Below, one piece after another: positions 42,599 to 46,630 of a DNA stretch of 64,000 bases. The translations under genes were made by a program, and so were the position numbers. Source of the DNA: Arenicella xantha (GTDB taxonomy: Bacteria; Pseudomonadota; Gammaproteobacteria; Arenicellales; Arenicellaceae). The stretch spans positions 248,001 through 312,000 of the forward strand of contig NZ_QNRT01000005.1 of the NCBI RefSeq assembly GCF_003315245.1, given 5' to 3'. The notes below the pieces were generated by a model. The model did not search any database. It was not told where the DNA came from and saw only the letters and a list, made by a program, of their open reading frames with translations. How positions within the stretch are numbered: position 1 is the first letter of the stretch; each line of letters starts with the position of its first letter.

Positions 42599-43996
42599 AT
42601 GAGCCAATTGAATTCAAAAATTATTGTCGGTAACCAAGAATGGTGTGCCTTTCCCGAGCTTGGAATTCCGGCTATTAAAGCGCGTGTTGATTCCGGCGCT
42701 AAGACTTCGTCTATCCATGCATTCAATATTCACCGCTTTCGCCGTGGCGGCCAAGCTTGGGTGAGTTTTGAGGTGCATCCGGTGCAGAAGAATCGGCGTG
42801 TGGTGATTCGATGTGAGCGGCCTTTGGTGGATAAGCGTGTTGTTAAAAGCTCTAGCGGGGTACCTGAAGCGCGCTATGTGATTAGTGTTCCAATGAAGCT
42901 CGGCGATGACCAATGGGACATTCAGCTGACCCTTGCTAATCGTGACTCAATGGGTTTTAGAATGTTGCTCGGTCGCGAGGCGATGAACGGTCGTATGATT
43001 GTTGACCCGTCGATTAAAACTGCATTGGGTGAATTTGATCAGCCGGAGCTAGATGACTTATATGGGCATGCGATAGTTAATCGAAGTGGGCTTAAGATCG
43101 GTCTTCTCGCGAGTGATCAAAGCCTTTACAGTAATCGGCGTTTAATTGAGGCCGGTCAGGAGCGCGGACACGAGATACAGTTTTTGAATATCAAGCAATG
43201 CTTTATGAAGCTGGATGCCGCTGAGCCTGAGATTCAGTATCGTGGAGGTCGTATTCTCAATGAGCTTGACGCGGTTATACCACGCATCCGACCCAGCATG
43301 ACTTTCTATGGAATAGCGTTGACGCGCCAGTTTGAAAGTCTTGGAATCAAAACGGTGAATACCTCCACGGCGATTGCTCAGGCGCGTGACAAATTGCTGG
43401 CATTGCAGTTACTGCTGAAGCAGGGCGTGAAGGTTCCCTGCAGTGGTATTGCTTATTCCTCATTGGATACTCGTGATTTGATTGATATGGTGGGCGGTGC
43501 ACCGTTAGCGGTGAAGCTCTTGGAGGGTACGCGGCGCCAAGGTGTGGTGCGTGCAGACGATCAAGCGGCAGCTGAAACAATGATTAACGCATTTAAGTCG
43601 CTCAGCGCCAACGTGTTAGTTCAGCCGTTTATTGGTGAAATCGACGGTAAAAATATTCGTTGTCTCGTGGTGCAAGGTAAAGTGGTGGCATCAATCGAGC
43701 ATATCGCCGTAACCTCAGCCGCGAGCGGTGCCGTTCGCCGAGCACCGGAAGGCGAGCTGGTTAAGATCAGTAAGGTGGAGCGCGCCTTAGCGATTAATGC
43801 AGCGAAAGCCTTAGGCTTAGATGTTGCTGGGGTTGATTTGATTCGCTCCGATGACGGGCCATTAGTTATCGGTGTTGTGCCGTCACCGAGTATCGAAGGC
43901 GTTGAGCAAGCCACCGGTAAAGATATCGCTGGTTTGATCATTTCATCTGTCGAGAAAAAGCTGCGTTGGAAGCGCGAGATTGAATTGATTAGTTAA
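42599..43996 (+). CDS. RimB-RimK fusion with degenerate ATP-grasp domain
   Basis: The 465-residue product has an N-terminal aspartic-protease-like domain of the RimB/PF05618 family (ARVDSGAKTSS, Asp31) and from about residue 166 a full-length RimK-like ATP-grasp domain. RimK adds glutamate to the C-terminus of ribosomal protein S6, and RimB is its partner peptidase. The RimK body is close to E. coli RimK (IPRI...TFYG, ARDKLLALQLL, LIDMVGGAPLAVKL), but several catalytic positions differ. The metal-binding Glu and Asn of MEVNAS are Gly425 and Val427, the glycine loop EGTQGIGV is EGTRRQGV, and the FRSNLHRGG loop is changed. It is probably not an ordinary glutamate ligase. Assignment to family is secure; the loss of activity is inferred. 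Confidence 0.85.
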   Translation: MSQLNSKIIVGNQEWCAFPELGIPAIKARVDSGAKTSSIHAFNIHRFRRGGQAWVSFEVHPVQKNRRVVIRCERPLVDKRVVKSSSGVPEARYVISVPMKLGDDQWDIQLTLANRDSMGFRMLLGREAMNGRMIVDPSIKTALGEFDQPELDDLYGHAIVNRSGLKIGLLASDQSLYSNRRLIEAGQERGHEIQFLNIKQCFMKLDAAEPEIQYRGGRILNELDAVIPRIRPSMTFYGIALTRQFESLGIKTVNTSTAIAQARDKLLALQLLLKQGVKVPCSGIAYSSLDTRDLIDMVGGAPLAVKLLEGTRRQGVVRADDQAAAETMINAFKSLSANVLVQPFIGEIDGKNIRCLVVQGKVVASIEHIAVTSAASGAVRRAPEGELVKISKVERALAINAAKALGLDVAGVDLIRSDDGPLVIGVVPSPSIEGVEQATGKDIAGLIISSVEKKLRWKREIELIS

Positions 43997-44057: not shown

Positions 44058-44070
44058 TATACTTATTTGT

Positions 44071-44349
44071 ATGTTGATTCGTCATCCTGCAATTATCTCT
44101 CGCATCCTGCTTCTGCTGCTCTTCGTTTGGGCGCAAGCGGCTGTGGCGGTGCACGATGTCGAACATAATTGGCATGAAAGCTCAGAGTTGTGTCAAGCGC
44201 TACAAAGTGCAGAGCACAACAAGCTAATCGCCGCACCTTGCGCCACGATCAATGTGGCGATCTCGATCAGCAACTCCTTCATGGCGCCGAGTGTACCCTC
44301 GGTCACGCCAATATTATTAGCGCATCCAGCGCGAAGTCCCCCGCTTTAA
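44071..44349 (+). CDS. Small secreted His-rich protein, putatively Zur-controlled
   Basis: A 92-residue protein with a hydrophobic signal peptide (ISRILLLLLFVWAQAAVA) and a short mature part with clustered potential metal ligands: H28, H32, H35, C41, H49 and C57 (HDVEHNWHESSELCQ...). The second half is Pro/Ala/Ser-rich. The Zur-like box is just upstream and the ZnuD-like receptor 148 bases downstream in the same direction. There is no strong ribosome-binding site. Not recognised as a family member; a periplasmic zinc-carrier or chaperone peptide is a plausible guess. Confidence 0.55.
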   Translation: MLIRHPAIISRILLLLLFVWAQAAVAVHDVEHNWHESSELCQALQSAEHNKLIAAPCATINVAISISNSFMAPSVPSVTPILLAHPARSPPL

Positions 44350-44497: not shown

Positions 44498-46630
44498 TTG
44501 AAAAAAATTCTGAGTATTGTTTGTCTGAGTGCAGCTTGCCAAGCTGGTGCCCAAGAAATTGAAGAAATCGTCGTTAAAGCACATCCACTCTCTGAACAAG
44601 GCCTTGCCCAATCAACCATTGTTTTACGCGGTGATGAACTGGCGGAAAACTTACAGAGCTCGTTGGGCGAAACTGTGGCTGGGTCGCCAGGGATTCGTTC
44701 AGCCAGTTTTGGCGGCGCAGTTGGTCGCCCAGTGATCCATGGCTTGGGCGGTGCACGAGTTAAAACCACAGAAGACAGAATTGATAGCCTCGATGTATCT
44801 GTCACAAGTGGTGATCATGCCGTGACAGTGGAACCGTTCATTGCCGATCAAATTACCGTGTTAAAGGGTGCGAGTACATTATTGTATGGAGCCGGTGCAA
44901 TTGGTGGCGTGGTGGACACTGAAACGGGTCGAATACCGACTGAGGTGCCAGAAGCGCCAATCTCAGGCCGTGCAGAACTGCGAGCCGGGGATAATGCTGA
45001 TACGCGTACCGGAGCTGTGCGCTTAGATGGTCGGCTGAGTGACGCAGTGGCTTGGCATTTAGACGCATTTTCTAAAGAGGCGGATGATTATGAAGTCCCT
45101 GGAGAAGTAGAGTCTCGGGCGCTGCGTGCAAGCGAAGGCGAGTCATTAGAGGATGGCGAGAGTCAGTTGTTGCCTGGCAGCCGCTATTCAATTGATGGTG
45201 GTGCACTTGGTGTGAGTTGGGTGAGTGAGGTGGGCATGATTGGCGTGTCCGTGAGTAAGCTGAACTCAGATTACGGTTTGATTGGCGGACACAATCACGA
45301 ACACGATGATGACCACGACGATCACGATGATGATCATGACGATCACGATGATGATCATGACGATCACGATGATGATCATGACGATCACGATGATGATCAT
45401 GACGAGCATGATGATGACCATGACGAGGAGTTTGAGTTAGACGATGTTGGTCGGATTGATTTGGAACAAACTCGAGTTGATATTGAAGCGCAATTAAATG
45501 ACCCGTTACGTGGTATTGAATCATTGAACTTGCGGGTAGGAATCAACGATTATCAACATAAAGAAATCGAGGCCAGCGGTGAAGTTGGTACCTTGTTTGA
45601 CAATCAGGCATGGGAGGCTCGTCTCGAAGCTAAGCACGTTGCCATTGGTGGCTGGTCTGGTGTGTTAGGTGTGCAGTTGAACGATCGAGATTTTAGCGCG
45701 CTCGGCGAAGAAGCATTCGTGCCACCAGTTAACACCTCGGCAAGCGGGCTCTTCTGGGTTGGTGAAAATAATTATTCAGGTTTTTCGGTTGAAGGCGGTG
45801 TGCGAGTCGAAAGGGTTGAGCATGACCCTGAGACATCGTTGTCAGAGCGCGAGTACAACACAACTAGCGCATCGTTAGGCGTGGTCGTGCCCCAGTCTGA
45901 CGCTCTAACTTGGTCGGCGTTGTTGGATTACACTGAGCGGGCTCCGAGTATTGAGGAACTGTATTCAAATGGTGCTCATTTAGCGACGCAGACGTTTGTG
46001 ATCGGTGACGTGGATTTGGAGACTGAGTCTGGCGCAGGGGTCACACTCAGCACAAATTATGAGTCAGATTTATTCGATGTGCGGGCAAGCGTGTATCACA
46101 CAAGGTTCAATGATTTTATCTATCAAGCTAATACGGGGCTTATTGACGATGAATTACCGGTATTTGCTTATCGTCAAGTGGACGCGGCATTTACTGGACT
46201 AGACTTAGAGCTTGGTGTGCACGTCGGACACTTTGCCTCGGGCGATCTTGATGTGACGGCTATGTTTGACACGGTTAATGCCGACCTTGAGTCTGGTTCT
46301 GGCAATTCTGAGCAAGCGCTGCCGCGAATTCCTTCAGATCGTCTTGGTGTTGGTCTGGCGTGGAGTGGTGACGCGTTTAGCGCTAAGTTGAACTATACCT
46401 ACGTAGCAGCACAGCGAGATGTTGCGATCTTGGAGTTACCTACTGAGTCTTATACTGACATCAGTGCACGTCTCTCTTATCGCATGGATGTGAGCTCAAC
46501 CGAAGTTACAGTGTTCTTGCAAGGACGTAATCTTGGTGACGAAGAGCAGCGCAACCATACTTCGTTTATTAAAGACCTTGCGCCAGCGGCGGGTCGTCGG
46601 ATCGAAGCAGGATTGCGCTTTTTATTCTAG
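44498..46630 (+). CDS. TonB-dependent receptor, ZnuD-like, with long Asp/His-rich loop
   Basis: The best start is TTG at 44498, with CGGAG 9-10 bases upstream, giving a signal peptide MKKILSIVCLSAACQAGAQ. Then a TonB-box-like EIEEIVVKAHPL, plug (IHGLGGARVKTTEDRIDSLDVS, LLYGAGAIGGVVDTETG) and barrel ending ...GLRFLF, 710 residues. Residues 269-310 are six tandem HDDDHDD-type heptads preceded by HNHE, an extracellular metal-binding loop like the His-rich loops of ZnuD. With the Zur-like box upstream, zinc uptake is most likely; nickel or copper cannot be excluded. Confidence 0.88.
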   Translation: MKKILSIVCLSAACQAGAQEIEEIVVKAHPLSEQGLAQSTIVLRGDELAENLQSSLGETVAGSPGIRSASFGGAVGRPVIHGLGGARVKTTEDRIDSLDVSVTSGDHAVTVEPFIADQITVLKGASTLLYGAGAIGGVVDTETGRIPTEVPEAPISGRAELRAGDNADTRTGAVRLDGRLSDAVAWHLDAFSKEADDYEVPGEVESRALRASEGESLEDGESQLLPGSRYSIDGGALGVSWVSEVGMIGVSVSKLNSDYGLIGGHNHEHDDDHDDHDDDHDDHDDDHDDHDDDHDDHDDDHDEHDDDHDEEFELDDVGRIDLEQTRVDIEAQLNDPLRGIESLNLRVGINDYQHKEIEASGEVGTLFDNQAWEARLEAKHVAIGGWSGVLGVQLNDRDFSALGEEAFVPPVNTSASGLFWVGENNYSGFSVEGGVRVERVEHDPETSLSEREYNTTSASLGVVVPQSDALTWSALLDYTERAPSIEELYSNGAHLATQTFVIGDVDLETESGAGVTLSTNYESDLFDVRASVYHTRFNDFIYQANTGLIDDELPVFAYRQVDAAFTGLDLELGVHVGHFASGDLDVTAMFDTVNADLESGSGNSEQALPRIPSDRLGVGLAWSGDAFSAKLNYTYVAAQRDVAILELPTESYTDISARLSYRMDVSSTEVTVFLQGRNLGDEEQRNHTSFIKDLAPAAGRRIEAGLRFLF
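45302..45427 (+). repeat. Six-copy 21-base in-frame tandem repeat encoding HDDDHDD/HDDDHDE
   Basis: Units start at 45302, 45323, 45344, 45365, 45386 and 45407. Units 2 to 4 are identical (CACGATGATGATCATGACGAT, split as 7 codons), and unit 5 differs from them by one base; units 1 and 6 diverge slightly more. Because 21 is a multiple of three, gain or loss of a unit changes loop length without shifting the frame. Each unit adds two His and four or five acidic residues. Confidence 0.95.

Follow-up and report, generated by a model that had tools for sequence, protein, structure and literature searches.

A gene at 42599..43996 of the window, that is, the whole stretch of 64,000 nucleotides of Arenicella xantha DNA which was analyzed, joins a RimB-type protease to a RimK-type ligase in a single chain. 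The question raised by this locus is what the ligase half may be kept for, when residues central to its ligase chemistry have been replaced.

Hybrids of this kind are already known. The RimBK hybrid was described by Little et al. 2025, and such hybrids represent ~12% of the rim-bearing accessions, mostly in Flavobacteriales and Rhodobacterales (PMC11957791). The hybrid of D. psychrophila (DP2392/Q6AKK4) cleaves polyglutamylated RpsF, and no glutamylation of SBW25 RpsF by it was observed (PMC11957791). A lineage with an apparently dead ligase half is new, as far as the literature searched shows, and no RimK pseudoenzyme or catalytically inactive RimK-like protein was found in that search.

The fusion gene and its RimB half

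The gene is an intact ORF of 465 aa, from ATG to TAA, with orthologs in its own genus and elsewhere; it and its parts, as given below, are located on the + strand. Its domains, that is, PF05618 (RimB) N-terminal to PF18030 (Rimk_N) and PF08443 (RimK ATP-grasp) in one chain, show the architecture of the RimBK hybrids and bear out the RimB-RimK fusion read here in an earlier note on this DNA. The hybrid of D. psychrophila shares this order of the domains, the Asp31-type catalytic motif and the marine setting.

The RimB retropepsin-like domain (aa 9-140, 42623..43018; PF05618 5.5e-35, NCBIfam Asp_endo_RimB 8.7e-39) has all 23 near-invariant RimB positions, as do the respective domains of two related fusions, L014 and L031, which are discussed below. 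Among these positions is the catalytic Asp31 (codon at 42689..42691), placed in DSGAKTSS as previously noted and thus within the D-[ST]-G-A endopeptidase motif. The respective residue, D31, is essential in the RimB of SBW25 (PMC11957791). The domain scores 132.7 bits against the Asp_endo_RimB equivalog cut-off of 200 bits, a model built for stand-alone RimB, and it is therefore termed RimB-like on the basis of homology and Pfam. Compared with the RimB of P. fluorescens, a retropepsin-like aspartic endopeptidase of the rimABK operon, the window domain has all near-invariant positions of the fused RimBs, including Asp31, but it is fused to a pseudo-RimK, whereas the P. fluorescens protein is made beside an active RimK. 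Catalysis in the window fusion is probably confined to this half, which, judging from its residues, would be an active protease.

A mirror image of this gene is found in G018, a member of another genus of the same family. The RimBK fusion at L034 1474-2835 has an intact RimK site and a ruined RimB site, with Asn at the position of Asp31, NSCLSISC in place of DSGAKTSS, and a very long RimB branch.

Ligase residues lost and kept

The RimK half matches the solved RimK structures along its whole length (E ~1e-78 to 1e-82), in agreement with the earlier claim that it can be aligned end to end with E. coli RimK. The identity to the RimK S6--L-glutamate ligases (E. coli 4iwx/5zct; Pseudomonas 7qyr/7qys) is 46-50% over aa 165-457, and the similarity of fold reaches Z 34.7-36.5. 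The half consists of a conserved Rimk_N pre-ATP-grasp domain (aa 165-259, 43091..43375; PF18030 9.1e-34) and a degenerate ATP-grasp domain (aa 262-450, 43382..43948; PF08443 1.1e-40).

Unlike the known ligases, the window protein has lost from its ATP-grasp domain Glu260, Asn262, Asp187, Arg203, Arg211 and Asn213 (E. coli numbering), together with both active-site loops. In detail, Glu260 and Asn262 are replaced in the stretch Gly425-Val-Val427 (43871..43879), where E-V-N has become G-V-V; the glycine-rich ATP loop TQGIG (TQGxG) is TRRQG (aa 311-315, 43529..43543), and the substrate/ATP loop FRSNLHRG is ASGAVRRA (aa 375-382, 43721..43744). Asp413 (43835..43837), which aligns with Asp248 of E. 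coli, is the sole one kept of Asp248, Glu260 and Asn262, the metal ligands of RimK. The changes of Glu260, Asn262 and the two loops, and the retention of Asp413, had been listed in the earlier note; the alignment adds to its list the changes of Asp187 to Asn352 and of Arg203 to His368, and the retention of Lys100 and Lys141. Contacts of RimK with ATP are made by Lys141, Glu178, Ile180, Phe210, Ser212 and Asn213, and with glutamate by Asn262 (PMC10092738).

In order to place these losses, 81 ORFs with a RimK domain (26 fusions and 55 separate RimKs) were aligned, drawn from the same genome, genus, family, order and class, and from Bacteroidota, Rhodobacterales plasmids and Enterobacterales. The set of Lys100, Lys141, Asp187, Arg203, Asp248, Glu260 and Asn262 is kept in 78 of the 81. 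The three exceptions are the window protein, L014 (genome G005) and L031 (G015); all three are fusions, come from a single Arenicella-like genus and carry the identical Gly-Val-Val. The further degenerate fusions which had been suggested as worth seeking are therefore present in two more species of the same genus. Outside the genus, none occurred in 109 genomes of the order or among the fusions read from the class and phylum samples, and 15/15 further fusions and 2/2 further separate RimKs of a phylum-wide sample were intact. The ligase site is retained in all other fusions compared (~38, a number which does not include D. psychrophila DP2392), and this is what sets the window protein apart from them. 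A 408-aa RimK-domain ORF of G014 (L125 1498-2721) is distant from the other RimKs (branch 1.42) and has intact catalytic residues.

The recurrence of the Glu260Gly and Asn262Val losses in the independent assemblies of two other species, together with the clean frame of 465 codons and the normal flanking genes, rules out a sequencing or assembly error at this locus.

The losses are unevenly distributed along the protein. When 44 near-invariant ATP-grasp positions were defined on 76 intact RimK domains, 14/44 were found lost in the window protein and 18/44 in each of L014 and L031, compared with 0-4 in intact fusions (leave-one-out). The near-invariant positions of Rimk_N are kept in the window protein (11/11) and nearly so in L014 and L031 (10/11 each). 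As judged from the alignment, the damage is restricted to the ATP-grasp chemistry and its extent is far beyond chance.

The ligase activity of this half would consequently be lost. That it still acts as a ligase, through altered residues or on a different substrate, is very improbable. The ATP-grasp fold is kept, with Lys141 and Asp248, but both loops are gone along with Glu260, Asn262, Asp187 and Arg203, four residues which show no variation among the 76 intact relatives, and the changes from E to G and from N to V are non-conservative.

A half deprived of catalysis may also bind nucleotide or glutamate and serve as an allosteric sensor which switches the RimB protease. Lys100, Lys141 and Asp248 of the window protein fit such a role, as does the RimB-RimK crosstalk documented in Pseudomonas (PMC10092738). 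However, neither ATP loop retains its sequence and disorder is predicted for both, Lys100 is Arg in L014 and L031, and Asp187, Phe210 and Asn213 are absent from all three degenerate fusions, so that a sensor of this type seems quite unlikely.

Descent, selection and predicted fold

The window protein, L014 and L031 group together as a single clade whether the tree is built from the RimK half (96/94), from RimB (92/93) or from the protein without its ATP-grasp domain (94/93). Intact fusions from within the genus are nearest to them (window versus L008, 70% identity). In the RimK tree, the window protein falls inside the main fusion clade (100/100), with 53-70% identity to most of its members. 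The genes downstream, encoding a TonB receptor and an EamA protein, are common to the intact fusion L010 and to the degenerate fusions of the window and L014, so that the loss of the ligase chemistry took place where the ancestral fusion already stood. Common descent with the other RimBK hybrids is thus seen both in the clade and in the locus shared with intact siblings. The RimK half would most probably be the descendant of an active ligase fused to RimB, whose chemistry was lost in one Arenicella-like lineage.

A functional operon with the TonB receptor and EamA genes was considered and rejected; these neighbors are conserved, yet nothing ties either of them to S6. In a simple scan, candidates for a sigma-70-type promoter did not exceed chance. 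In the interval separating the fusion from the TonB receptor gene, a small ORF (44068-44298) with the motif VHxxxHxWHxSxELC is conserved in L014 and L031 and has no Pfam match. A 21-bp tandem repeat of 6.2 copies (45297-45426), located in the downstream TonB-dependent receptor, encodes a His/Asp-rich stretch, and the length of the repeat varies among relatives. Elsewhere in the tree, the RimBK fusions L057, L058, L083 and L088, from Rhodobacterales plasmids and some Gammaproteobacteria, group with separate RimKs outside the main fusion clade, and the fusion of RimB with RimK has therefore probably arisen at least twice.

The dead half is not decaying, as far as this can be measured. The RimK halves of L014 and L031, the closest pair, give a dN/dS of 0.035 and their RimB halves one of 0.031, at nearly saturated synonymous sites; between the window protein and L008 these sites are saturated. 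The open frames of all three degenerate fusions are intact despite the near-saturating synonymous divergence. In these comparisons the dead half is under purifying selection, and the low dN/dS of the L014/L031 pair rules out pseudogene decay.

What has changed is the balance of rates. The ATP-grasp domain of intact fusions exceeds RimB in conservation by a mean of 22 identity points, whereas that of the degenerate ones falls 5-13 points below it, and the stem branch of L014 and L031 is 1.67 for the RimK half versus 0.47 for RimB. The AF2 model of the window protein has the fold of RimK (against 5zct: Z 36.5, rmsd 1.7 A, 286 residues). Values of pLDDT <50 are confined, within the RimK half, to residues 311-314, 346-348 and 371-383 and the last five residues. 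The first of these segments falls in TRRQG, and the third, predicted to be disordered, includes ASGAVRRA. The model of the intact sibling L008 shows no such loops, and the block equivalent to FRSNLHRG has a mean pLDDT of 33 in the window protein versus 68 in L008 (both models were built from the same sequence set, with alignment rows from plasmid records left out). The flipped rates, together with the intact frames and the predicted RimK fold, show that constraint was lost on catalysis and retained on the fold. Retention of an ATP-grasp scaffold without its chemistry is a general pattern of pseudoenzymes, and the view that this half looks like a pseudoenzyme on an intact scaffold is supported, with the ligase residues and loops lost and the fold predicted to be intact.

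Separate rim genes and the proposed role of the pseudo-ligase half

The window genome contains two separate intact rimK genes, which settles the earlier suggestion to look for an ordinary rimK elsewhere in the genome, and it has no second RimB-type gene except for one RloA-like paralog. G005 and G015 have one separate rimK each. In each of the three genomes with a degenerate fusion, a rimK belongs to a rimK-astE-like operon which has mgtE behind it and contains no rimB; in G006 and G014, where there is no fusion, the order is rimK-astE-rimB. With the RloA-like paralogs set aside, the fusion is thus the only RimB-type protease of the three genomes.

A separate intact rimK accompanies the fusion in 3/3 genomes with a degenerate fusion versus 1/8 with an intact one (Fisher p 0.024), the single case among the latter being G007. 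As several genomes with an intact fusion reach a completeness of only 78-88%, the absence of rimK from them may reflect assembly gaps. The co-occurrence of degenerate fusion and separate rimK is suggestive, and it represents one evolutionary event in three relatives which form one clade.

Two further features of these genomes were recorded. The ribosomal protein S6 of the genus (L130-L147; 153-200 aa) has a long Ala/Glu-rich acidic C-terminal tail in 18/18 genomes, even in those without RimK or RimB; the tail was therefore rejected as a marker, since it does not discriminate. A hydrolase of the AstE/AspA type (PF24827) is encoded by the direct neighbor of rimK, whether rimB is there or not, in this genus, Vibrio and Salinivibrio (L177 2774-4712, L178 2180-4125, L183 2098-4490 and L061 3010-5395), and this enzyme may likewise trim glutamate tails.

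In G004, a RimB of the fusion clade (~165 aa) stands without a RimK half, in a genome which also has a separate rimK. The pseudo-half is therefore dispensable in at least one relative, and the stand-alone RimB seems to represent a later stage of the same process. This bears on the main rival of a docking or regulatory role, according to which the RimK half became redundant once a separate RimK was present and is on its way out, a harmless passenger which stabilizes the fold of RimB, with the protein of G004 as the end point. The fast evolution of the RimK half agrees with such an outcome, as does G004 itself. On the contrary, selection on the dead half of L014 and L031 is as strict as on RimB, three frames remain open after near-saturating synonymous divergence and the RimK fold is kept in the model, and an outgoing passenger is therefore considered unlikely, though less so than a sensor.

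The explanation which we favor, with some confidence, is that of an S6 polyglutamate protease whose pseudo-ligase half serves for docking or regulation, alongside a separate intact RimK. The RimB half alone would be catalytic and would trim the polyglutamate tails of S6, and ligation of glutamate would be carried out by the separate RimK of the operon lacking rimB. The pseudo-RimK half would keep the protease close to the polyglutamylated tail of S6, or co-assemble with the active RimK tetramer, or both, and separate genes for writer and eraser would then determine between them the length of the tail. The docking or regulatory role is supported by the direct interaction through which RimB binds RimK and modulates its ATPase, and by the tetrameric state of RimK (PMC10092738). 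The suggested reader of the tail may be reflected in residues of the polyglutamate cleft, as reported for the RimK of P. aeruginosa. Of these, the window protein keeps Ser14, Arg64, Ser68 and Arg189, and L014 and L031 keep only Arg64 and Arg189, so that selection for tail reading is not evident across the three. As for the suggestion of a re-purposed tag remover, the removal would be the known activity of RimB, shown for the hybrid of D. psychrophila, and no re-purposing is needed for it.

A more specific form of the docking role is put forward tentatively, as a possibility we would not yet bet on. The dead RimK half, placed in an oligomer of intact RimK or on the S6 tail, would be a dedicated non-catalytic subunit which brings RimB to the writer and sets the length of the ribosomal polyglutamate. 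If true, this splitting of writer and eraser would give the RimK family its first pseudoenzyme that acts in regulation. For the hybrid already published, the function of the RimK half was left open, since glutamylation of S6 was not seen. In the Arenicella-like genus the ligase chemistry appears to have been removed naturally from a scaffold which is still selected, and intact and dead versions are found at one locus, thus offering a clean comparison of the catalytic and the structural roles of RimK in the control of the ribosomal tail.
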